64,000 nucleotides of DNA from Thiocapsa bogorovii (GTDB lineage: Bacteria > Pseudomonadota > Gammaproteobacteria > Chromatiales > Chromatiaceae), in NCBI RefSeq assembly GCF_021228795.1, contig NZ_CP089309.1, positions 1,054,001 through 1,118,000 of the forward strand, written 5' to 3'. A program made the translations under genes and the position numbers. The notes under the pieces are model-generated. The model ran no database searches and was not told where the DNA came from. It was given only the letters and a program-made list of their open reading frames with translations. This document shows, piece after piece, positions 11,136 to 54,779 of this stretch (positions are counted from its first letter, which is position 1; each line of letters starts with the position of its first letter).

Positions 11136-12241
11136 ATCAAGTGTTCCTGAAACCGCGACTGGTCGGTCGCCGTTTCGACGAGCATACGCTTCCCCTCGAA
11201 ATCCTGACGGACTTCGCCGCTCTGGAATCGATGCTTGTCGAGGTGGCCAAGCGTGAGTTTCGGCAGGCGAATCCCAGTCGCGCCCGCATTCCGAAAGGCT
11301 TCACCAAAGGATTCGAGCTGCATCTCACCGCCGTCGAGAGTGGCAGCGCGGTTCCGGTCATTGCAATCGTGTTTCCTTCGCTGCTCCCACCATCGGCTGT
11401 CGACTACTTCGAGCAGGCCAGAGACAAGATCATCGAGGCGATTGCCAGCGTCGAGCTGGGTCAACAGCCGACTCTGGCCCCGGAGCTGCTGCGCTACTTC
11501 GACCGATTCGGGCGTGGGCTTCGCGAGGGGGAGGCGATCGAATTCACGCGCTCCGGCGGACAGACGACCGCATTGACGCCCGCGATTCGAGAACGGCTGT
11601 TGCGCGCCTCTCAGGCTGAAGAGTGGACCGAGGAGGTCACGCTCAAGGGACGTATTCCCGAGGTCGATCAAGCGGACCTGACCTTCGAGCTGGAGCTGAG
11701 CGATGGCCTCAAGCTTAAAGCGCCACTCGCGGAGCAGCAACGCGAGACCGTTCTGCAAGCCTTCGCGACCTACCGCGAAGGACAGATCGTCGCGGTGCAG
11801 GGTGTCATCAAACGCGATCGCGCCGAGCGTCCGAAGTCATTCGAGTCCATCGAACACATCAGCCCATTAGATGCGCTGGATGTCGAAACCCGCCTTGAGG
11901 AGCTTGCGGCGCTCCCTGACGGATGGCTCGATGGCAGAGGCAAACGCCTTGATCCTGTCGCCTTGCGTTCCTTGGCACAGGCGTTCGACGACTACTTCGA
12001 TTCCCAGCTGCCGCTACCGTACCTCTACCCGACGGCTGAAGGCGGGGTTCAAGCCGAATGGAGCCTGGGCGATTGGGAGGTCTCGCTAGAGATCGACCTC
12101 GGGGGTCGCACGGCCCTCTATCAGGCGGTGCGGTTGAGCACGGACCAGACGCGTGAGCGGACGATTGATCTATCGCTCGGGCAAAAGGAATGGGGCAGGC
12201 TCAATGAGGAGTTGTGGAGCCTGGGGGGGGTTGGCGCGTGA
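11132..12241 (+). CDS. Unrecognised RM-operon protein A
   Basis: 369 aa, soluble, of unknown function, inserted between hsdM and hsdS. The N-terminal half is a mixed alpha/beta domain with an SGSAVPVIAIVF strand. A middle segment about 190-245 (VTLKGRIPEVDQADLTFEL to EGQIVAVQGVIKRD) looks like a small beta-barrel. The C-terminus has YLYPTAEGGVQAEWS and WEVSLEIDL. It starts within the hsdM stop (ATGA) and its own stop overlaps the next gene, so stoichiometric co-expression with the RM subunits is likely. Confidence 0.85.
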   Translation: MNQVFLKPRLVGRRFDEHTLPLEILTDFAALESMLVEVAKREFRQANPSRARIPKGFTKGFELHLTAVESGSAVPVIAIVFPSLLPPSAVDYFEQARDKIIEAIASVELGQQPTLAPELLRYFDRFGRGLREGEAIEFTRSGGQTTALTPAIRERLLRASQAEEWTEEVTLKGRIPEVDQADLTFELELSDGLKLKAPLAEQQRETVLQAFATYREGQIVAVQGVIKRDRAERPKSFESIEHISPLDALDVETRLEELAALPDGWLDGRGKRLDPVALRSLAQAFDDYFDSQLPLPYLYPTAEGGVQAEWSLGDWEVSLEIDLGGRTALYQAVRLSTDQTRERTIDLSLGQKEWGRLNEELWSLGGVGA

Positions 12242-12618
12242 GGTCTGAAACGCTGTTGCTCCGCCAGATCCACCCGAACTTCGTCCAAGCAGGCCGTGCG
12301 ACCTCGCAAGCGTTTCGCCCCACGCCGAAGGACGAGCAGCGATTGTCCGTGGATAACGGAGACTTGATCGAGGCGGAGGCCGCCTGGAAGCGTTTTGTCA
12401 GCAATCCAGCCTGCTCCTCGGCTGGTGTCATGGCTGTGCTCCACGGGGAATGCGATGCCCAGTCACTGGCCGTGATCGAGGATGGCGTCCCCTATCCCGA
12501 ACACTGCTCCATCGATTTCTCTGCCTTCGAGAAGCGCGAGATCGAGCGCAAGGCCAAGCACTTGTCCCGCCAGGCACAGGGCCGGGGTTGGCTGTTCGAG
12601 GCGAGTGGAGCGGCATGA
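12238..12618 (+). CDS. Unrecognised RM-operon protein B
   Basis: 127 aa, unknown function. GTG 12238 overlaps the preceding stop (GTGA) and follows a G-rich ribosome site; its own stop overlaps hsdS (ATGA). Visible segments are TLLLRQIHPNFVQAG, FRPTPKDEQRLSV, AGVMAV and PEHCSIDFSAFEKREIERKAKHL, ending RGWLF. It sits directly behind protein A, suggesting a two-gene module with a shared function. No toxin, nuclease or DNA-binding motif is evident. Confidence 0.83.
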   Translation: MRSETLLLRQIHPNFVQAGRATSQAFRPTPKDEQRLSVDNGDLIEAEAAWKRFVSNPACSSAGVMAVLHGECDAQSLAVIEDGVPYPEHCSIDFSAFEKREIERKAKHLSRQAQGRGWLFEASGAA

Positions 12619-13128
12619 GTCACTGCAAGCCATATCCAGCATACAAGGATTCAGGGTCAGCCTGGATCGGCCAAGTCCCCGAGCATTGGATTGTAGCGAA
12701 GCTGGCATTTCGGTACCACGTAGCGCTGGGCAAGATGCTCGATGAGAAGCGGATCAAGGGGCATCACTTAGTTCCCTATTTGCGCAACCAGGATGTGCAA
12801 TGGGGGCGGATCAATACCATCGGCTTGCCAGAGATGGACATCGTCCCAGAAGAGATGGACCGGTATTCGGTATCTCAGGGCGATCTATTGGTTTGCGAGG
12901 GTGGTGAAGTGGGCCGTGCAGCGGTTTGGCGAGGACCAGACGGGGTCTTCGGCTACCAGAAGGCGCTCCACCGACTTCGGCCAGTATCGTCTGATTCGGA
13001 TATAGCCGAGTTCATGTATTACTCGCTGATCGCGGCGAGCGTTTGCGGGACATTTCAGGAAGGGGATACAAAATCGACGATCTCACATCTCCCGGCAGAG
13101 AAGTTCCGCACGTATCGCTTCCCTTATC

Positions 13129-14631
13129 CTCGACTTTGGCCATTTCCGGGCCTCGGCGGAAGCGCCGCGAGGCGCCGGGAGCGACGGTGACAGACCCGAT
13201 TGATGTGGCGGCAGAGGGCCGCGGACGGTATCGTCCGATGTCGACCAAAACCTCGGACCTGCCCGCGGATGTTCCCTCTGCCAGCCTCGATTGTATCTGT
13301 TCTGCAGCCCTTTGCCTGCCTGTTCACCGCGCCGACCCTGGCGCATCTGCACGTCTTGCTCACGGGAACGCTGCTGGCGCAAGGACCACGCACGGTGACG
13401 GCGGCACTGCGGGCGATGGGGCTGAGCGCGGAGCGGCGCTTCGAGCGTTACCACCGGGTGCTGAATCGGGCGCGTTGGTCGTCGCGCCAAGGGGCGCGGA
13501 TTCTGCTGGGGTTGTTGCTCGGGATGTTGCCGGCGCAGGTGCCGATCGTGGTGGCGGTCGACGAGACGCTGGAACGGCGCAAGGGCGCGCGCATTCGAGC
13601 GAAGGGGATGTATCGCGATGCGGTGCGCTCCTCGCGCGGCAAGGTGGTGACCTGTTTGGGGCTGGAGTGGATCTGCATGGCGTTGTTGGTGCCCGTGCCG
13701 TGGAGCACGCGGCCTTGGGCGCTGCCCTTTCTCACCCGCTTGGCGCCGTCGAAACGGGCCGACGAGGCGGCCGCGCGGCACCATCGCACGGTCGTGGAGC
13801 TCACCATCGGGATGGTCTGGCTGGTCTCGCGCTGGCTGCAGCAACGCCGCTGGATCCTGCTCGGCGACGGCAGCTACTCCTGCATCCAGCTGGGGTGGGA
13901 AGTGCTGGCTGCGCAAGCGACCCTGATCACGCGCCTGCGCCTGGATGCACGCCTGTTCGCCTTTCCCGAGCCGGTGCCCGCCGGGCGGCGCGGCCCCAAG
14001 CCGAAGAAAGGCGGCGTACTGGCCAAGCTCGCCACACGCGAGGAAGCGGCGCACACCCGAGGCGAGGAGGTCGCGATTCAATGGTACGGACAGCCCAAAA
14101 CGCTGCGCCTGCTCAGCGAGGTGTGTCTGTGGCACACCGCGGGATGGCCGCCGTTGCCGATTCGCTGGGTGCTCGTGGTCGATCCCGAGGGCCGGCTGCC
14201 GACGCAAGCCTTCTTCACCACCGACCTGAACATGGCGCCGGCCCGCGTCGTGGAGCTGTTCGTCCAGCGCTGGTCGCTCGAGGTCACCTTCGAGGAAGTC
14301 CGTCGCCACCTCGGCGTCGAGACCCAGCGCCAGTGGAACGACCTGGCGATCGCACGCACCACGCCGATGCTGATGGCGCTGTTCTCGCTCGTCTGTCTCA
14401 TGGTCTACCGGTGGCGCGAGCGCTGGGACGCCCTGCCGCGCTCCACGGCCTGGTATCTGAAGTCCCACGCCACCTTCTCCGATTGCCTGGCCCTGGTGCG
14501 GCGCACCATCTGGGCCGAGGAGAATTACGCCTACTCACGGTCCGAGGGGGAGATGGTCCTAATTTCGTCCAAGCGACTCGATCGCCTGCTGGAACAGCTC
14601 GCGGCGACCGCCTAGATTGGCCAAAGTCGAG
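13129..14631 (+). mobile_element. 1503-bp DDE insertion sequence, copy 1 (in hsdS)
   Basis: The terminal inverted repeat is CTCGACTTTGGCCA / TGGCCAAAGTCGAG (14 bp, perfect), flanked by the direct repeat TTATC at 13124-13128 and 14632-14636. One transposase gene fills it. A second copy of identical length, with an identical transposase, lies at 26044-27546. IS4-superfamily architecture; I cannot fix the family by eye. Confidence 0.93.
13200..14615 (+). CDS. DDE transposase of the 1503-bp IS (copy 1)
   Basis: 471 aa. The likely DDE acids are in VVAVDETLERR (near residue 120), LGDGSYSC (near residue 222) and the C-terminal QRWSLEVTFEEVRRHLG (near residue 360), which resembles the Y/W-R-E signature of IS4-superfamily enzymes. 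The antisense strand is also open over 461 codons, an effect of high GC. The protein is identical to that of copy 2, implying recent transposition. Confidence 0.92.
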   Translation: MMWRQRAADGIVRCRPKPRTCPRMFPLPASIVSVLQPFACLFTAPTLAHLHVLLTGTLLAQGPRTVTAALRAMGLSAERRFERYHRVLNRARWSSRQGARILLGLLLGMLPAQVPIVVAVDETLERRKGARIRAKGMYRDAVRSSRGKVVTCLGLEWICMALLVPVPWSTRPWALPFLTRLAPSKRADEAAARHHRTVVELTIGMVWLVSRWLQQRRWILLGDGSYSCIQLGWEVLAAQATLITRLRLDARLFAFPEPVPAGRRGPKPKKGGVLAKLATREEAAHTRGEEVAIQWYGQPKTLRLLSEVCLWHTAGWPPLPIRWVLVVDPEGRLPTQAFFTTDLNMAPARVVELFVQRWSLEVTFEEVRRHLGVETQRQWNDLAIARTTPMLMALFSLVCLMVYRWRERWDALPRSTAWYLKSHATFSDCLALVRRTIWAEENYAYSRSEGEMVLISSKRLDRLLEQLAATA

Positions 14632-45418: not shown

Positions 45419-45709
45419 CTAAACGCCCTCTCCAGGTGCGCGATGCAACAGGGTGCTGAGCTCCTCTGGCCAACACCCCGCAGGCGGCCCGAGCTCGGCG
45501 CCATCCCCTTCGAACCGCACCAGGTACAGCTCCCGTTCGGGGTCCTCTTCGAGGTGTCCGATGTTGAGGATGACGCCGCGGGTCCCGGCGGCTGCGATCA
45601 AGGCATCTTCGGCGAGATCCGGGATGCCGCCGTCGTTGTAGATGTCCGAGGCGGCGTAGACCAAATCGCCGGGACCTAAATGACCGAGCTCCAATTCACT
45701 GAGATCCAT
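45419..45709 (-). CDS. nifZ: NifZ-family nitrogenase maturation protein
   Basis: 96 aa. PGDLVYAASDIYNDGGIPD, AEDALIAAAGTRGVILNIGH and ELGPPAGCWPEEL are the NifZ hallmarks. NifZ helps mature the second P-cluster pair of the MoFe protein. AGGAG lies just before ATG 45709; a longer frame is open upstream but has no such site. Divergent from nifU, with a sigma-54-type promoter at 45899-45885. Confidence 0.88.
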   Translation of the reverse strand: MDLSELELGHLGPGDLVYAASDIYNDGGIPDLAEDALIAAAGTRGVILNIGHLEEDPERELYLVRFEGDGAELGPPAGCWPEELSTLLHRAPGEGV

Positions 45710-45847
45710 CAAAGACTCCTGTTGTTGAGATGTGTTGTGGGATTCGCGACCCGACACAGGCGGGCTGTCGTTCGAGAGCCGACATCGACGGGTCAGGGAC
45801 AGGTCTCGAATCTTTATAAACCAATGAGATACATGAAACAGACGGCG

Positions 45848-45862
45848 TGGCACACGGTTTGC
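45848..45862 (+). promoter_or_regulatory. Sigma-54 promoter for nifU
   Basis: TGGCAC-N5-TTGC, a perfect -24/-12 element, about 95 bp before the nifU start. NifA activation is expected for nif genes, but no TGT-N10-ACA site was found by eye in 45650-45957. Confidence 0.8.
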
Positions 45863-45884
45863 TGCATGGCTCGGCAAGACAGAC

Positions 45885-45899
45885 GCAAAACTCAAGCCA
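45885..45899 (-). promoter_or_regulatory. Probable sigma-54 promoter for nifZ
   Basis: On the minus strand TGGCTT-N5-TTGC keeps the invariant GG and GC with correct spacing, about 175 bp before nifZ. It lies past the nifU promoter, so the two transcripts would overlap at their 5' ends. Confidence 0.55.
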
Positions 45900-45957
45900 C
45901 GGCCTGAGCATCCGTCCCGACTCACTCGCTCATCGCAACGCCAACCGGAGACACGCA

Positions 45958-46842
45958 ATGTGGGATTACTCGGAAAAGGTTCAGGAGCACTTCTTCAATC
46001 CCCGCAATGCGGGCGCGGTCGCGGATGCCAATGCGACGGGTGACGTGGGCTCCCTGTCCTGCGGGGATGCGCTGCGCCTGACCCTCAAGGTCGATCCGGA
46101 GAGCGAGGTGATCCTCGATGCCGGCTTCCAGACCTTCGGCTGCGGCTCGGCCATCGCCTCGAGCTCCGCGCTGACCGAGATCATCAAAGGTATGACGCTC
46201 AACGAGGCGCTCGAGGTCACGAATCAGGACATCGCCGACTATCTCGACGGACTACCCGCCGAAAAGATGCACTGCTCGGTGATGGGTCGCGAGGCGCTGC
46301 AGGCGGCGATCGCCAACTATCGCGGCGAGGAATGGAAGGACGACCACGAGGAAGGCGCCCTGGTGTGCAAGTGTTTCGCGGTCGATGCGGTTCTGATTGA
46401 AAACACCGTCCGGTCCAACGGTCTCTCCACCGTCGAAGAGGTCGCGAACTACACCAAGGCGGGTGGCGGCTGCTCGGCCTGCCACGAGGGCGTCGAGGCC
46501 ATCCTGAGCCGCGTCCTCGCCGAGCAGGGTAAGGCGTTCGACCCTTACGCCAAGGCACCCGAGGCGGCAGCGACAGGCGGCGGACGCAAGCTCGGCAATC
46601 TGGAACGGATCCGCCGCATCGAGCGCTCCATCGAGGCGATCCGCCCGAACCTGCAGCGCGACCACGGCGACGTGGAGCTGATCGACATCGACGGCAAAAA
46701 CGTCTACGTCAACATGACAGGCGCCTGCGTGGGCTGCCAGATGGCATCGACCACGCTCGATGGGATCCAGCAGCGCATCGTCGAGGACCTCGGCGAGTTC
46801 GTGCGGGTGCTGCCGTCGAAGGCGATGCGCAAGAGCGCGTAA
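45958..46842 (+). CDS. nifU: Nitrogenase Fe-S scaffold NifU
   Basis: Full three-domain NifU, 294 aa. The IscU-like domain has C35 (SCGDALR), C62 (GCGSAIASS) and C106 (MHCSVMG). The central [2Fe-2S] ferredoxin domain has C137/C139 (VCKCF) and C172/C175 (GCSAC). The C-terminal Nfu domain has C257-x2-C260 (ACVGCQMAS). It assembles clusters from sulfur given by NifS. CGGAG precedes ATG 45958. Confidence 0.96.
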
Positions 46843-46927
46843 GAGCCGCCAGCCGCCAGCCGCCAGCGAAAGGAAAGTCAATGACGGAATACCGTGCGGC
46901 CGGGCTTGCTCATCGCAGCGGTCGGTA

Positions 46928-47000
46928 GGGTGGACGAGCCAAAGCGAAGTCCACCAAGCCCTGCGCATGCGTCGGTGGACTGCGCTGCGCTCGTCCACCC
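46928..47000. repeat. REP-like inverted repeat between nifU and nifS
   Basis: GGGTGGACGAGC at 46928 and its reverse complement GCTCGTCCACCC ending at 47000 enclose an inner pair GTCCACC/GGTGGAC. This is a dispersed-type intergenic palindrome that could form a cruciform or a processed 3' end for nifU mRNA. A triple CCGCCAGC repeat precedes it (46852-46865). Confidence 0.65.
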
Positions 47001-48099
47001 GACGGCTCCGATCAGCAAGTGGCCGAGTTGATGAGCGTCCCGCCTACGGCGCGAGAGCGCACCAGAATGCCGGAGGCAGACAGCCGCACTCCAATACCAC
47101 CGAAGGTTTCACGAGGCCATCAATCCATGACGACTCCACCCGACACCCAAGGCATCTATCTCGACAACAACGCCACCACCATGGTCGCGCCCGAGGTGGT
47201 CGAGGCCATGTTGCCCTTCTTCACGGAGCAGTTCGGCAACGCCTCCTCGATCCATGCCTACGGCAACCGGGTCGGTCATGCCATCAAGCAGGCGCGGCAG
47301 CAGGTGCAGGCTTTGCTCGGGGCCGCGCAGGACTCCGAAATCGTCTTCACCTCCTGCGGGACCGAGTCGGATTCCACCGCGATCCTCTCCGCCCTCACGG
47401 CGCAGCCGGAGCGTAAGGAGATCATCACCACGGTCGTGGAGCATCCGGCGATCCTCGCGCTCTGTCAGCACCTGGAGACCGAGGGCTACAAGGTCCATTA
47501 CCTCCCGGTCGACGGCAAGGGTCGGCTCGATATCCAGCAGTACATGGATCTGCTTTCCGATCGCGTCGCGATCGTCTCGGTGATGTGGGCAAACAACGAA
47601 TCCGGCACACTCTTCCCGGTGCAGGAGATGGCGGAGCTGGCGAAATCGGCCGGCGTGCTCTTTCATACGGATGCGGTACAGGCCGTCGGAAAGCTTCCCA
47701 TCGATCTGAAGGACACCGCGATCGACATGCTCTCGCTCTCCGGACACAAGCTGCATGCGCCCAAGGGCATCGGTGTCCTCTATCTGAGGCGCAACACGCG
47801 CTTTCGTCCCTTGCTGCGCGGCGGGCATCAGGAACGCGGCCGGCGTGCCGGCACCGAGAATAGCGCATCCATCGTCGGGCTCGGCAAGGCGTGCGAGATG
47901 GCGATGGTGCACATAGACGAGGAGAAGACCAGAGTCCGGGCCATGCGCGATCGGCTCGAGCAAGGCATCCTCGCGGCGGAGAGTAAGCCGGGTCCTCACC
48001 GTCGGTTAGGCTGATGTTTGTGTTCTCTGTTTGCCGCCTGGTTTCCCGGCGGTGCCACATGATCTCGGCCATACGACGGTTTGTTCCCGGCTCCTCGCA

Positions 48100-48132
48100 G
48101 AACCGGACTTGGAGTGTTACACCATCCGGCTC
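48100..48132 (-). ncRNA. Group II intron domain V
   Basis: Minus-strand hairpin: outer helix GAGCCGGA paired with TCCGGTTC, inner part GGTG-TAA-CACTCC. This is the catalytic core element of group II introns. It contains the stop codon TAA of the reverse transcriptase. Confidence 0.8.
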
Positions 48133-49451
48133 CCAGCTTGAGTCTTCCACCAAGGAACGGGGTAGAGGTCGTGAATGATCCGCGCCGTCGGGAGCATGGG
48201 CTTGATGACCGCGTAGAAGCGCTTCCAGGTCAACGAGCGACGTTGGCTGCGCCGGTTGAGCCATTTGAACAACAGGCCCGTTGCGGCGTAAAGGTAACCC
48301 GATACGCCCCGGCTATTGCCGCTCACACCGTAATACTGGATGTGTCCGCGCAGATGCCGGATCAGGTACGCCACCATCGCCCGCCCGCCTCGCGCCCGCA
48401 ACCCCCGCAGACGCTCGCTCAGGAGCTTGAGCTTCTTGCCGACCCGCTTGCCGTCGCTCTTACGCCCGACAACAAAGCGCCCCCGCCGGCTCTTCCCGAC
48501 ACAGTGAGTGAAGCCGAGGAAGCTGAAGGTACGCGGTCCGGGCGTCTCCGCCCGCGTCCGACCCAGCTGGTCGCTGCCGAAACGCAGCAGCGCCGTTTTG
48601 CTCGGCTCGACCTCCAGGTCGAACTGCGCCAGCCGTGCGGTCATCTCGGTGAGAAAGGCCCGTGCATCGCCTTCGTGCTCGAAGCAGGCCACATAGTCGT
48701 CGGCATAGCGAATCAGGTACGCCCGTCCCGTGCAGGTCCCCGCAAAGCGTTTCTCGAACCAAAGGTCGAGGACGTAGTGCAGGTAGATATTGCTCAGCAC
48801 GGGCGAGACCAGACCCCCTTGTGGGGCGCCCTCTTCACTGGCCGTGAACGCGCCGTCCTCCATGATGCCGGCCTTCAGGAACCGCCGCACGATCCGCAAC
48901 AGATTGGGATCGCCGATGCGGTGCTCCAGGAAGTCCATGAGGTGGGAGTGTGACAGATGATCAAAGAAGCCTTTGATGTCCGCCTCCACCACCCACTGCG
49001 TGCGCCCGTTGGTGATGACCTCGGCCACCCGGCGCAGCGCATCGTGCGCGCTGCGACCCGGCCGAAACCCGAACGAGCAGTCCCGAAACTCCGGCTCCCA
49101 AATGGCCTGAAGGATGCGGCCGAGGCGATCTTGGACCAGGCGGTCCTCGAAGCTCGGCACCCCCAACGGCCGATAACGGCCGTCCCCTTTCGGGATGTAG
49201 GTGCGCCGCACCGGCAACGGCCGGTACCCCAGACGGCGAATCCGTGCCGACAGATCCTCCAGACGCGCGTCCAGACCCACTGCATAGTCGTCCTTCCTAA
49301 CCCCGTCGACTCCGGGCGCCTTGCGTCCGTCCTGGCGCTCGAAGCTTTCGCGCAACCCCTCCGGGTCAAACAACATGCCCATCAGGGACGTGAACCGCGT
49401 GTGCGGTTCCGCGCGCGCCATCAGTGTGAAACGCTCAAGCTTGCTGGTCAC
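48117..49451 (-). CDS. ltrA: Group II intron reverse transcriptase/maturase
   Basis: 444 aa from GTG 49451, with GAGG about 13 nt upstream; a frame 26 codons longer exists. RT motifs: KAPGVDGV, RPLGVPSFEDRLVQ, WVVEADIKGFFDH, GAPQGGLVSPVLSNIYLHY and YADDYVACF (catalytic YADD). The maturase X domain follows (LIRHLRGHIQYYGV). There is no HNH endonuclease domain, so homing would use replication forks or other primers. It ends GSRMV, with the stop inside domain V. Confidence 0.93.
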   Translation of the reverse strand: MTSKLERFTLMARAEPHTRFTSLMGMLFDPEGLRESFERQDGRKAPGVDGVRKDDYAVGLDARLEDLSARIRRLGYRPLPVRRTYIPKGDGRYRPLGVPSFEDRLVQDRLGRILQAIWEPEFRDCSFGFRPGRSAHDALRRVAEVITNGRTQWVVEADIKGFFDHLSHSHLMDFLEHRIGDPNLLRIVRRFLKAGIMEDGAFTASEEGAPQGGLVSPVLSNIYLHYVLDLWFEKRFAGTCTGRAYLIRYADDYVACFEHEGDARAFLTEMTARLAQFDLEVEPSKTALLRFGSDQLGRTRAETPGPRTFSFLGFTHCVGKSRRGRFVVGRKSDGKRVGKKLKLLSERLRGLRARGGRAMVAYLIRHLRGHIQYYGVSGNSRGVSGYLYAATGLLFKWLNRRSQRRSLTWKRFYAVIKPMLPTARIIHDLYPVPWWKTQAGSRMV

Positions 49452-50584
49452 GGTCAGAGTCCTCTCGGTGTAGGGCCGTGTTTCACTCTTGCGTTGTCTC
49501 AAACCGCCACCCCTTCGCTCCGCCCGCATTACCGGGTATCAACGCTACTATAGGTGGCTCCGACTTCCGCGCATCGCTGCCCGCGTCCTCGCTTTTGACA
49601 CTTGTTCGCGGGTGCCCGCCTCCGACGGACCGATACACGGATCTCCCTGGTTACCGCGTGCTCTCGATGTCAGGCTCGATACGGCCTCGGACCCGGGGAG
49701 TACCCGTGCCACTCGCCATGACGCGACACGGACTGTTGCCTGCCGGAGGGACAAACCCGTCGGCACTCCCGACCAAATGTTTCGGGGCTCAACACCTTCA
49801 AGGTCGGCTCCACCCGTTACCTTTGCACCTCGCCTGCTGTCGTGCCTACGCATCGACGCGGCTGTTACCAGCCGCGCCGCAAGGCTCGATACCGGGCTCG
49901 TGGCTAGCGATTACCCAGGCGGGAGTTCCACCCGCTAGAACACGCGGCCTTGCCAGGCCGCACTGTCCCCAATTGCTTCGTGACGGGCGACCCGACCAAC
50001 CGCCTGCCCAACACCAGCAACATCGCCTTTGAATACATCGAGGGCGAGGCGATCCTCCTGCTGCTGAACAAACTCGGCATCGCCGCCTCGAGCGGCTCCG
50101 CCTGCACCTCCGGTTCGCTCGAGCCCTCCCACGTGATGCGCGCGATGGGGATCCCTTTTACCGCCGCCCACGGCACCACACGCTTCTCCCTCTCGCGCTA
50201 CAACCGCATGGAGGAGATCGACCGAGTCATCGAAGCCGTGCCGCCGATCGTCGCCAAGCTGCGCAAGCTCTCGCCCTATTGGTCCGACACGGGTCCTGTA
50301 TCCGATCCGGCCGCCGCTTTCGCACCGGCCTACGCCTGACCGAAACGCCCCGTCGGACCCGTCCGGCGGCGCGCCGATCACCAACCTTTTTCGGCTCGGC
50401 GGGCTCGCAAGTCGCACGTCCGTGTGCGACCAAGCCGATACCGATCCGCTGAGGCCGAGGATCCACCCGTGGCGTCGGCCCCAGCTGCCAGGTCTGCGCC
50501 GTCCGGCAACCCTTGCCGTTTCCGTGAAATCCGCCGCGCGAAATCGCCTATGCTTGTCCTCGACCTCGCAGCGGACAGCACGAC

Positions 50585-51991
50585 ATGACGCGCGCCTCCA
50601 CCCAAGCCGATCCCCGCCCCGCCGACCCGCGTCCCGCGGGCATCGCACAGCACGGCGATTGCCCCGAGCCGACGGCAGAGGCGACCTGGATCCATGTCAT
50701 CCGAAAGATGGACGAGACCTACGCGGATCTGATCCGGCATCAGAGCGAGCTCGAAGAGAAGAACAGCGCCCTGGAGGATGCCCAGCAGTTCATCGCGAGC
50801 GTGCTGGCCTCCATGACGGATGTCCTGATCGTGTGCGACGTCCAGGGGCGCATCCAACAGGTCAACCGCGCATTGGAAACGTTGACGGGTTGGAGCGAGG
50901 CCGATCTGCGCGGGCGACCCTTCCTGGCCCTGCTCGCCGAGCACTGCCTGCCCATGGCCAGCAGCTTCGCGCAACAGATCCGCGCCGAGGCCATCCACGA
51001 CTGCGAGCTTGCACTCAAGGGCGTGGACGAGGAGGTCCCGCTCGCGGTGAACTGCACCTCGCGGTACGACCACCGCGGACGTCTGGTCGGCATGGTCCTG
51101 ATCGGTCGTCCGGTCGGCGAGCTCCGCCGTGCCTATCGCGACCTGGCCCAGGCACACGACGACCTCAAGCGCGCCCAGGGTCGCCTGGTGAACGCCGAGA
51201 AGATGGCTTCGCTTGGCCGGCTCGTCGCCGGCGTAGCGCATGAGCTGAACAACCCCATCAGCTTCGTCTATGGAAACGTGCATGCCCTCTCGCGCTATCG
51301 CGAGCGGCTGCTGCGCTATTGCGCGGCGGTCGACGCCTCCGGACCCTCCACCGAGCTGCAGGCGCTCAAGGCGGAGCTGCGCATCGAGCGGCTTCTGGCG
51401 GATCTCGATCCGCTGATCAAAGGCACGCTCGAAGGCGCCGAGCGCGTCCGCGACCTGGTGCAGGATCTGCGCTGCTTCTCATCCGGCCAGCAGGGCGAAT
51501 CCACCCGCTTCGATCTTGTCCACCTGGTCCGTACGGCGGTGCATTGGGTGACCAAAGGCGAACGCAGGGAGATCGAGACGACGCTCGACCTCCCCGACAC
51601 GGTGACGATCCAGGGACATCCGGGACAGATCCATCAGGTCCTCATGAACCTGGTCCAAAACGCACTCGACGCGATGCGGGACAACACGCAGCCACCGCGA
51701 CTGTCGATCACCGCCGGACAGGAGGAGACGACCGCCTGGCTCAGCGTCCGGGACAACGGCCCCGGCATCGACGAGCAGGACCTGAGCCGCATCTTCGACC
51801 CCTTTTTCACGACCAAACCGGTCGGCCAGGGAACCGGACTGGGACTGTCGATCAGCTACAGCATCGTCGCCGACCATCGGGGCAACCTGACCGCCGAAAA
51901 CCACCCGGATGGCGGCGCCGAATTCCGCCTGGAGCTGCCGCTGAGTCGCGACGCGATGCCCGAAACAGGGCCCAACCAAGATGCCCCTTAA
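50585..51991 (+). CDS. hupT: Hydrogenase-regulating histidine kinase HupT
   Basis: 468 aa, soluble. A PAS domain (about 75-190, FIASVLASMTDVLIVCD) is followed by the H-box GRLVAGVAHELNNPISF near residue 223, N-box NLVQNALDAM, G1 DNGPGI and G2 GQGTGLGLSISYS. The match to HupT/HoxJ rests mainly on position directly before hupUV. These kinases sense H2 through HupUV and phosphorylate HupR; no hupR is in the window. ATG 50585 has no clear ribosome site, so M42 is possible. Confidence 0.88.
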   Translation: MTRASTQADPRPADPRPAGIAQHGDCPEPTAEATWIHVIRKMDETYADLIRHQSELEEKNSALEDAQQFIASVLASMTDVLIVCDVQGRIQQVNRALETLTGWSEADLRGRPFLALLAEHCLPMASSFAQQIRAEAIHDCELALKGVDEEVPLAVNCTSRYDHRGRLVGMVLIGRPVGELRRAYRDLAQAHDDLKRAQGRLVNAEKMASLGRLVAGVAHELNNPISFVYGNVHALSRYRERLLRYCAAVDASGPSTELQALKAELRIERLLADLDPLIKGTLEGAERVRDLVQDLRCFSSGQQGESTRFDLVHLVRTAVHWVTKGERREIETTLDLPDTVTIQGHPGQIHQVLMNLVQNALDAMRDNTQPPRLSITAGQEETTAWLSVRDNGPGIDEQDLSRIFDPFFTTKPVGQGTGLGLSISYSIVADHRGNLTAENHPDGGAEFRLELPLSRDAMPETGPNQDAP

Positions 51992-52084: not shown

Positions 52085-53080
52085 ATGAACCTGTTATGGC
52101 TCCAGTCCGGCGGGTGCGGCGGCTGCACGCTCTCGCTGCTCGGCGCCGAGGCACCGGGCCTGTTCGAGACACTCGGCGGCGCCGGGATCCGTGTCCTCTG
52201 GCACCCCTCGCTGAGCGAGGCGAGCGGCGGCGAGGTGCTCGATCTGCTCGCCCGCGTCGAAACGGGCGAGGTGGCGTTGGACCTGCTCTGCATCGAAGGC
52301 GCGCTCCTGCGCGGACCGAACGGCACAGGCGCCTTTCACCGGTTTGCCGGCACCCGCACACCCATGATCGACTGGGTGAGGCGTCTGGCGGCCCGAGCGC
52401 ACTACTGCCTCGCGATCGGCACCTGCGCCGCGTTCGGCGGGGTCACCGCCGGCGGCTCCAATCCCACGGATGCCTGCGGACTCCAGTTCGAGGGGACATA
52501 CCGCGGCGGTCTGCTCGGCACCGACTATCGCTCCGGGGCCGGCTTGCCGGTGATCAATGTCGCCGGCTGTCCGACCCATCCCGACTGGGTCACCGAGACC
52601 CTCATGGCGATCGCCTTGGAGGGACTCACGACCCAAGACCTGGATGCCTACGCCCGCCCCCGGATGTACGCCGACCAATTGGTCCATCACGGCTGCCCAC
52701 GCAACGAATTCTACGAATACAAGGCGAGCGCCCGCACACCGTCGGATCTCGGCTGTCTCATGGAGCATCTGGGCTGCCTCGGCACCCAGGCCCACGCCGA
52801 CTGCAACACTCGACTCTGGAACGGCTCGGGCTCCTGCACGCGCGGCGGCTATGCCTGCATCAACTGCACCTCGCCCGAGTTCGAGGAACCGGGCCATGCC
52901 TTTGCGGAAACTCCCAGCCTCGCCGGCATCCCGATCGGCCTGCCGACCGACATGCCCAAGGCCTGGTTCGTTGCGCTCTCCTCGCTGGCGAAGGCCGCAA
53001 CACCGGAGCGACTGCGCAAGAACGCCGTGTCGGACCATGTCGCGGTACCGCCGACGATTCGGCCGACAAAGTTGCGGTGA
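52085..53080 (+). CDS. hupU: H2-sensing [NiFe] hydrogenase small subunit HupU
   Basis: 331 aa, with no Tat leader, which separates regulatory HupU/HoxB from exported HupS. The cluster ligands are visible: SGGCGGCTLS, GTCAAFGG and GCPTHP (proximal), HHGCPRNEFYEY with GCLGTQAHADC (distal), and RGGYACINCTSPEF (medial). It carries electrons in the H2 sensor with HupV. Confidence 0.93.
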   Translation: MNLLWLQSGGCGGCTLSLLGAEAPGLFETLGGAGIRVLWHPSLSEASGGEVLDLLARVETGEVALDLLCIEGALLRGPNGTGAFHRFAGTRTPMIDWVRRLAARAHYCLAIGTCAAFGGVTAGGSNPTDACGLQFEGTYRGGLLGTDYRSGAGLPVINVAGCPTHPDWVTETLMAIALEGLTTQDLDAYARPRMYADQLVHHGCPRNEFYEYKASARTPSDLGCLMEHLGCLGTQAHADCNTRLWNGSGSCTRGGYACINCTSPEFEEPGHAFAETPSLAGIPIGLPTDMPKAWFVALSSLAKAATPERLRKNAVSDHVAVPPTIRPTKLR

Positions 53081-53184: not shown

Positions 53185-53337
53185 ATGACGATCGAAACAG
53201 ACTCTTTCCCTTTGCAGTCGTGTGGCTCCCATGACCCGCACCAGCCAACCGGCCCATGGTCGGACACTCGGGGCTCGAGCCCGTGGGCTGGAGGCCGGCG
53301 GCGAGAGGCTGGACGCCCGCGGTACTCCCCCGAATGA
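53185..53337 (+). CDS. Possible 50-aa ORF coupled to hupV
   Basis: Starts MTIETDSFPLQSCGSHDPHQ after AGGGAAACC, and its stop overlaps the hupV start by ATGA. The C-terminal half is low complexity. It may be a translational leader rather than a functional protein. Confidence 0.3.
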   Translation: MTIETDSFPLQSCGSHDPHQPTGPWSDTRGSSPWAGGRRREAGRPRYSPE

Positions 53338-54779
53338 GCACACTCACCTTGGGCCCGTTCAACCGCGTCGAGGGCGACCTGGAGGTTCAGCTCGAGGTCA
53401 CCGACGGACGCGTGCGCAAGGCCCGCGTCAACTCGCCCCTTTATCGCGGCTTCGAGCAGATCCTCCAAGGCAAGGACCCGCGCGATACCCTGGTGATCAC
53501 GCCGCGGATCTGCGGGATCTGCTCGGTCTCTCAGTCGGTGGCCGCGGCCTATGCGCTGGCGGACGCGGCCGGGGTCGCCATGCCGCCGAACGGCGAACTG
53601 GCCACCAACCTCATCCTCGCCTGCGAGAACCTGGCCGACCATCTGACCCATTTTTATCTGTTTTTCATGCCGGACTTCGCACGTCCGGTCTATGCCGACC
53701 GGCCTTGGTATGCGGACACCGAGATGCGCTTCCGGGCCCTAAGTGGCTCGGCAGCGGGAGTGGTCCTGCCGGCGCGCGCGCACTTCATGCATCTGATGGG
53801 CCTGCTCGCCGGCAAGTGGCCGCACAGCCTGAGTCTGCAACCGGGCGGAACCGCCAAGCCGGTGCAGGCGCAGGAGCGCATCCGATTGCTCGCCATCCTC
53901 GGTGCCTTCAGACGTTTTCTGGAGCGCGAGACCTTCGGCGATCCCTTGGAGACCCTCGTCGCGCTGGACAGTGCTAGCGCCCTCGACGCCTGGGCTGCAC
54001 GCGACCCGGGCCGAGGCGACCTGCGCCGCTTCCTGCAGATCGCGGATGACCTCGGCTTGGCCCGTCTGGGACGCGCGACCGATCGCTTCATGAGCTACAG
54101 CGCTTACCCGAGCGGGGGCGACCGTCTTTTCCGAACCGGTCTTTGGGCCGACACGGGTCCGCAGCCTTTGGACATCGCGTCGATCGCCGAAGACCCGAGC
54201 CACAGCTGGATGGTCGGAGGCGACCCTTTGCATCCCGCCGACGGCGTGACCATCCCCGATGCGGAGAAGGCGAACGCCTACAGCTGGTGCAAGGCCCCGC
54301 GACTCGCGGGCGGGGTGATCGAGGTCGGCGCGCTGGCCCGTCAGCTCATCGACGGCCATCCCCTGATTCGCGACCTGGTGTCTGAATCCGGCGGGAATGT
54401 GCGGAATCGCGTCATCGCGAGACTACTCGAGCTTGCGCGTGTCCTGATGGCGATGGAGGACTGGGTCAAGGCAATCGCGCCGGGCGAGCCCTTCTGCGAG
54501 CAGACAGCAATCCCGGACGAGGCAATCGGCGTAGGACTGGTCGAGGCCGCCCGCGGCAGCCTGGGCCACTGGCTCACGATCCGCCGAGGTCGCGTCCTGA
54601 ACTACCAGATCATCGCCCCTACCACCTGGAACTTCTCCCCGCGCGATGCCGCCGGCGTCCCGGGCGCCTTGGAGCAAGCCCTCGTCGGGGCTGAGGTGCG
54701 GCCGGGCGAGACCACACCGGTCGCCGTGCAACACATCGTGCGCTCGTTCGACCCCTGCATGGTCTGCACGGTCCACTGA
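53334..54779 (+). CDS. hupV: H2-sensing [NiFe] hydrogenase large subunit HupV
   Basis: 481 aa. NiFe ligands are in the L1 motif RICGICSVSQS near residue 60 and the L2 motif DPCMVCTVH, which is the C-terminus itself. Regulatory hydrogenases lack the cleavable extension, as here, so no HupD processing is needed. The RVEGDLEVQLEV opening is standard. A 253-bp gap separates it from hupU, whereas these genes are usually adjacent. ATG 53334 overlaps the small upstream ORF stop. Confidence 0.94.
   Translation: MSTLTLGPFNRVEGDLEVQLEVTDGRVRKARVNSPLYRGFEQILQGKDPRDTLVITPRICGICSVSQSVAAAYALADAAGVAMPPNGELATNLILACENLADHLTHFYLFFMPDFARPVYADRPWYADTEMRFRALSGSAAGVVLPARAHFMHLMGLLAGKWPHSLSLQPGGTAKPVQAQERIRLLAILGAFRRFLERETFGDPLETLVALDSASALDAWAARDPGRGDLRRFLQIADDLGLARLGRATDRFMSYSAYPSGGDRLFRTGLWADTGPQPLDIASIAEDPSHSWMVGGDPLHPADGVTIPDAEKANAYSWCKAPRLAGGVIEVGALARQLIDGHPLIRDLVSESGGNVRNRVIARLLELARVLMAMEDWVKAIAPGEPFCEQTAIPDEAIGVGLVEAARGSLGHWLTIRRGRVLNYQIIAPTTWNFSPRDAAGVPGALEQALVGAEVRPGETTPVAVQHIVRSFDPCMVCTVH

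Follow-up and report, generated by a model that had tools for sequence, protein, structure and literature searches.

In Thiocapsa bogorovii BBS, formerly T. roseopersicina BBS (PMC10892978), the gene for the nitrogenase-associated cysteine desulfurase, nifS, lies in two pieces about 2 kb apart. What lies between the pieces, how it came to be there, and what becomes of the sulfur supply of nitrogenase and of the genes downstream are the questions addressed here. The locus is contained in a stretch of 64,000 nucleotides, called the window below, taken from a genome of 5,649,927 bases assembled as a single contig. A search of the open-licence literature for 'group II intron' together with 'Thiocapsa' found no paper.

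An antisense group II intron in nifS

The sequence between the two pieces of nifS is 1986 nt long (Table 1). Read on the minus strand, it begins with GTGCG, which fits the GUGYG 5' end of group II introns, and contains a conserved ribozyme core, a reading frame for an RT/maturase with the YADD motif, and domains V and VI, these last as a match below the gathering threshold of their family. The domain V-VI stretch (47978-48133) folds with a z score of -5.08. The RT resembles the solved group II RTs when compared with PDB structures. An endonuclease domain was not found in it by a Pfam search, in which RVT_1 was the sole match at E values up to 0.001.

Both ribozyme parts and the RT are encoded on the minus strand and nifS on the plus strand, which rules out a sense-strand intron. 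The initial annotation, which described nifS as split by an antisense group II intron that cannot be spliced out of the nifS mRNA, and the gap as about 1.98 kb long with a GTGCG 5' end and an RT frame, is borne out in these respects.

Table 1. Features of the nifS-hupTUV region and of the mutY copy of the intron. Positions are those of the window except for the mutY copy, which is given by its place in the genome.
Feature	Position	Strand	Basis and remarks
nifZ, intact	45419..45709	-	PF04319, 44.2 bits (cut-off 27)
Sigma-54 (-24/-12) consensus TGGCAC-N5-TTGC upstream of nifU	45848..45862	+	only zero-mismatch match in the window
nifU, intact	45958..46842	+	TIGR02000, 470.4 bits (cut-off 273.3)
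nifS 5' part, PLP domain with Lys	47127..47977	+	TIGR03402 profile 1-274; 98% aa identity to T. marina
Group II intron, 1986 nt, antisense to nifS	47978..49963	-	ends from six copies, G123 head-to-tail copies and empty site
Intron domains V-VI	47978..48134	-	RF00029, 33.1 bits, below gathering threshold 40, E 3.6e-4; match ends at deduced 3' end
Intron-encoded RT/maturase, 470 aa	48117..49529	-	TIGR04416, 320 bits (cut-off 300); YADD
Ribozyme part matched by group-II-D1D4-6	49682..49928	-	RF02005, 139.8 bits (gathering threshold 49)
nifS 3' part, catalytic Cys	49964..50339	+	TIGR03402 profile 274-379; 100% aa identity to T. marina
IBS1 of the target, GGGGACA	49964..49970	-	complementary to the intron's single TGTCCC, taken as EBS1
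hupT, histidine kinase	50585..51991	+	PAS/HisKA/HATPase; 97% to T. marina orthologue, same order
hupU, H2-sensor hydrogenase small subunit	52085..53080	+	PF01058, PF14720; under NCBIfam small-subunit cut-offs
hupV, H2-sensor hydrogenase large subunit	53334..54779	+	PF00374, 255.9 bits
mutY intron copy (L004)	G000:C1:2351407-2356371 (2.35 Mb)		full copy, sense to mutY

In the related genome G123 copies of the intron abut head to tail (...CTCTCC/GTGCG..., the slash marking the boundary), which fixes both ends at once. A 3' end at TTAC was rejected, because nifS would then lose its frame and because CTCTCC is the end of the head-to-tail copies. The corresponding site of T. marina (L032) is uninterrupted and reads ...CTCGCGGC/TGTCCCCAATTGC...; it is 96.7% identical to the joined nifS flanks over 91 bases, and the mismatches lie away from the junction. 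Because T. marina keeps the exact uninterrupted site, the insertion was accompanied by neither duplication nor deletion of the target. An uninterrupted nifS is also found in 79 of the 80 loci fetched (the best 80 of at least 584 confirmed relatives), the remaining one being cut by a contig end. In the eight genus genomes in which nifS exceeds its cut-off the gene is a single frame; in other genomes the flanks of the intron copies were read in part.

The six similar copies of the intron in the genome could have been mis-joined, which would make the split an artefact of assembly. This is extremely unlikely: according to the genome paper, the assembly is a hybrid of Nanopore and Illumina reads (PMC10892978), and the junction matches both the target consensus of the intron and the exact empty site of T. 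marina.

The two halves of NifS match successive parts of the TIGR03402 profile with 457.6 and 170.5 bits, each below the cut-off of 530.75 bits, and a single frame spanning both is absent. The break falls between the motifs SGHKLHAPKG and SGSAC, whose lysine and cysteine we take to be the PLP lysine and the catalytic cysteine of NifS, just where it had been placed initially; the neighboring nifU and nifZ, described there as intact, pass their cut-offs. The halves had also been called well preserved. Comparison with T. marina gives 29 synonymous and 7 nonsynonymous changes in the N-terminal part, 21 and none in the C-terminal part, and pairwise dN/dS values of 0.04-0.13 for nifU, hupT, hupU and hupV. 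Neither half shows decay by this pairwise measure, which would miss a very young loss. As nifS is free of such decay and its intron is identical to the copy at 12181-14166 of the genome, the sequences point to a recent insertion.

The break leaves the lysine and cysteine parts whole, and a TTG in the end of the intron is in frame with the C-terminal part, so that two separately translated fragments might be imagined to reassemble into a working NifS. However, an in-frame ATG ahead of the catalytic cysteine is lacking, inspection by eye finds no ribosome-binding site at the TTG, and the N-terminal part acquires intron-encoded residues, all of which makes such a split enzyme very unlikely. Very probably, a group II intron lacking an endonuclease has recently retrotransposed, in antisense orientation, into an off-target site in nifS of BBS, and no complete NifS is made.

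Copies, targets and the direction of the replication fork

Copies of the intron were scored among the best 40 candidates per genome, and the counts are to be read as at least the numbers given. In BBS the matches listed comprise five full copies, 99.5-100% identical, and a sixth that is split into parts of 99.7% and 95.1% identity. In this sixth copy (L007; G000:C1:4157642-4159916) the RT is interrupted by another sequence of about 310 bp, the second part being only 95% identical. Related introns of about 0.8 kb that have no RT reading frame form a cluster at G000:C1:4450893-4463399 (L008-L015); similar pieces are present in several relatives, and these introns are presumably mobilised in trans. 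In G123 two full introns and a shorter ORF-less one stand head to tail with no spacer (L166, L171; G123:C1:4654110-4658859). Matches to the intron, many of them short pieces, occur in 69 of the 194 genomes of the family, and the copies that were read in related genomes have the same ends and the same target.

The target, deduced from 49 distinct 5' flanks and 37 distinct 3' flanks in BBS and related genomes after dropping flanks that are another intron copy themselves, is mostly GGGGNCA/G. The G at -7 is conserved in 41 of the 49 and the G at +1 in 33 of the 37. The nifS site, GGGGACA/G, matches this consensus. The sequence GGGGACAG was found 12 times in the 400 kb sampled on both strands; therefore, many sites could serve as targets.

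At several home sites (L165, L181, L186 and others) the intron is preceded by TTCCGGGGACA or TTCAGGGGACA and followed by GTTTACT or GTTTACC. This repeat-like flank sequence, sometimes near a Y1-transposase-like frame, may be the usual target of the intron. A transposase-like motif occurs at 3 of 30 loci (L121, L176, L186); a fourth match, at L005, is unconvincing, and an NCBIfam search of the L005 flank gave no match. In the genome, ATTCCGGGGACAG is matched once exactly and 10 times with one mismatch, and its reversed control 2 times; AAAWNNGGGACAGACC is matched twice exactly and twice with one mismatch, and its control once. Few exact home-site words exist in the genome, and a REP-like intron home next to Y1 transposases is a lead.

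The orientation of the copies can be related to replication. In BBS dnaA is located at 2.816 Mb. The GC skew turns between 2.52 and 2.80 Mb: in 20 sampled stretches it has a negative sign up to 2.6 Mb and a positive one beyond, apart from minor deviations at 0.28, 3.08 and 3.92 Mb. The intron copies lie on the minus strand at 0.012, 1.10 and 2.35 Mb and on the plus strand at 4.16, 5.20 and 5.59 Mb, so that all six among the matches listed are co-directional with the fork. Since the copies at 0.012 and 5.59 Mb are beside the terminus, within 0.05 Mb of the dnaA antipode, they are not safely assignable to a replichore; without them, 4 of 4 run with the fork. Five related genomes were picked for having 1-3 contigs and full or long copies. 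Among their listed matches the with-fork counts are 5/6 in G123 (its tandem pair counted once), 3/4 in G185, 3/3 in G028, 2/4 in G105 and 1/1 in G107. Over the six genomes this amounts to 20 of 24 copies with the fork and 4 against (two-sided binomial 0.0015 if the copies are independent). The replichores in G105 and G185 are backed by the GC skew and those in G123 loosely so, whereas the skew of G028 and G107 is too noisy for this purpose; in G028, G107 and G123 the replichores rest on dnaA. Leaving out G028 and G107 gives 16 of 20 (0.012). Outside this tally are the shorter ORF-less copies, several of them oriented against the fork (G123:1570330 and G028:343649 among others).

A bias of this kind is described for RmInt1 of Sinorhizobium meliloti, which inserts mainly into the lagging-strand template. 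According to the reports on it, RmInt1 has, like the BBS intron, an RT without an endonuclease domain, recognizes its target by IBS pairing, and occasionally inserts ectopically into genes, oxi1 among others, as happened in nifS (PMC5894124, PMC8914252). The missing endonuclease and the strand bias fit an RmInt1-like intron, the likeness being one of these features. Unlike the case of RmInt1, the home sites of the BBS type share the short GGGGNCA/G motif, and the gene struck is nifS. As a group II intron retrotransposition the nifS event is of an ordinary kind; its place is unusually informative.

The process of insertion may thus be pictured as follows. The intron RNA would reverse-splice into the lagging-strand template at nifS, where the nascent lagging strand would serve as the primer for copying the intron. 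Transcription of nifS, on the plus strand at 1.10 Mb, is head-on to the fork; as the intron inserts along the fork and nifS faces it, the intron would come to lie antisense to nifS. The nifS mRNA would then be beyond repair by splicing, and no complete NifS could be made.

The antisense orientation might also be due to chance. Four of the 24 copies do run against the fork, two of these among the four in G105, the skew is noisy in two genomes, and two BBS copies are at the terminus. The unanimity in BBS, the excess over the six genomes, which persists when G028 and G107 are left out, and the bias established for RmInt1 nevertheless make chance unlikely, and an orientation set by the fork is the preferred reading.

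The copy in mutY is instructive in this respect. The two mutY pieces cover positions 7-257 and 259-348 of the NF008132 profile, and the first passes TIGR01084 (348.7 bits against 286.5). Here the gene runs with the fork, the intron is in sense orientation, and the flanking frames would join in frame after splicing, which fits an intron that can be spliced from the mRNA. The nifS and mutY copies are each other's control, and the comparison suggests that the direction of a gene relative to the fork decides whether the intron inactivates it or is spliceable. Poor splicing of the mutY intron could make BBS a mutator.

Sulfur supply and nitrogen fixation

The initial annotation had left two alternatives: either nif-specific sulfur mobilisation was lost, or another desulfurase covers it. 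Both are supported by the present analysis, which narrows them. TIGR03402 is exceeded in 70 of the 194 genomes of the family and in 8 of the 11 genus members; BBS has the split nifS only, and two other genus members have no match over the cut-off. A search of the BBS genome with the TIGR03402 profile found no second nifS. IscS exceeds its cut-off in none of the 11 genus genomes and in 14 of 38 relatives. The sole other NifS/IscS-type gene of BBS (L029 and L272; G000:C1:5443000-5450000) is truncated to the first 162 of 383 residues, whereas its counterparts in T. marina, G185 and G123 have 383 aa. Only one of the four other desulfurase-like matches passes a desulfurase cut-off. This is an intact SufS-SufE-like fusion, whose SufS part reaches 539.9 bits with TIGR01979 (cut-off 475.1) and whose SufE part, with 88.6, stays below the 160 required. 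Two further class-V proteins of BBS pass no desulfurase cut-off.

The rest of the nitrogenase machinery is well represented. NifH and nifD are over their cut-offs, as are nifK (757.4 bits against 427.3), nifN (570.1 against 326.8), nifE (636.5 against 505.1) and nifB (644.7 against 343.65); judged by their profile matches, nifHDK, nifEN, nifB, nifU and nifZ are intact in BBS. The main text of the genome paper states, by citation, that BBS is a diazotroph, and contains no occurrence of nifS, intron or cysteine desulfurase (PMC10892978). A complete loss of function fits poorly with this statement, unless another source of sulfur covers for NifS.

Without NifS, the assembly of nitrogenase clusters would be impaired, or its sulfur would come from the SufS-SufE-like fusion or from elsewhere. 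Diazotrophy maintained by the fusion, or by the free sulfide that is abundant in a purple sulfur bacterium, feeding NifU is a real possibility that falls short of being probable; it bears on the consequence of the insertion and not on the insertion itself. Apart from the nif genes over their cut-offs, the diazotroph statement and the score of the SufS part, it is favored by reported precedents: Methanococcus maripaludis, which has no cysteine desulfurase, takes sulfide as its sulfur donor, and Methanosarcina acetivorans is able to fix N2 in the absence of NifSU (PMC10500019). The statement on BBS, however, is a citation and not a test of the sequenced stock, and intact nif genes prove little because the insertion is young. 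The data fit equally an impaired N2 fixation and one in which SufS-SufE or sulfide takes the place of NifS. BBS would in any case represent a natural nifS knock-out in a genus without an IscS over the cut-off in the 11 genomes searched, and as such tests how dispensable NifS is.

The hupTUV genes downstream of nifS

The gap between nifS and hupT is 245 bp. The gene hupT, named by its position beside hupUV, is followed by hupU and hupV on the strand of nifS, and T. marina has the genes in this order too. Hydrogenases of purple sulfur bacteria are studied in BBS as a model strain, and its hupTUV genes are reported to be present but unexpressed (PMC10892978, PMC3325256, citing Kovacs et al. 2005).

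The only exact promoter consensus found upstream of hupTUV is the sigma-54 site before nifU, on the far side of the intron. It is identical in T. marina, and its consensus has 1 exact match in the 400 kb sampled on both strands. A NifA upstream site (TGT-N10-ACA) was not found near nifU in 45650-45965. No sigma-70 consensus was found in 45600-50700, where only 0.7 would be expected by chance, and with so low an expectation real promoters of non-consensus sequence would be missed. In the same interval there are 4 terminator-like sites, no excess over the 3.0 expected by chance; none was found in the nifS-hupT gap, and one lies at 48000-48016 on the plus strand, just inside the intron past the N-terminal part of nifS.

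Polarity would be expected of an untranslated 2-kb antisense stretch that separates hupTUV from the promoter. A single insertion may thus account for two traits of BBS, removing NifS and cutting hupTUV off from the sigma-54 promoter of nifU, a reading that is possible but rather doubtful. If true, it would explain why hupTUV are intact, with low dN/dS relative to T. marina, and yet reported silent, the nifS lesion offering a physical cause for the silence of the H2 sensor; its companion, if true, would be N2 fixation in BBS with SufS-SufE replacing NifS. A strain lesion that disables H2 sensing is described in Rhodopseudomonas palustris CGA009, in which hupV carries a frameshift (PMC6981441). 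Unlike that strain, where a hydrogenase gene itself is broken, BBS has intact hupTUV and a break only in the upstream gene, with a hypothetical effect.

Polar silencing is weakened by several considerations: 1) the nif genes may have been repressed when the published silence was measured; 2) hupT adjoins nifS only in T. marina among the loci compared; 3) the sequence just before hupT is conserved. In a comparison of nifS loci, 80 of them named and 12 unnamed, hupT directly follows nifS in T. marina alone (L032 and L208, the same species twice). In T. roseopersicina DSM 217 (L210) and G153 (L211) it is found 5-6 kb further downstream, the genes between being presumably cobalamin genes in DSM 217. 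In G123 a partial match to hupT is found 5.8 kb beyond nifS, and in G185 and G023 none was found in the stretch fetched after nifS. A stretch of about 110 bp immediately ahead of hupT is conserved in these different contexts and may hold a promoter of this gene.
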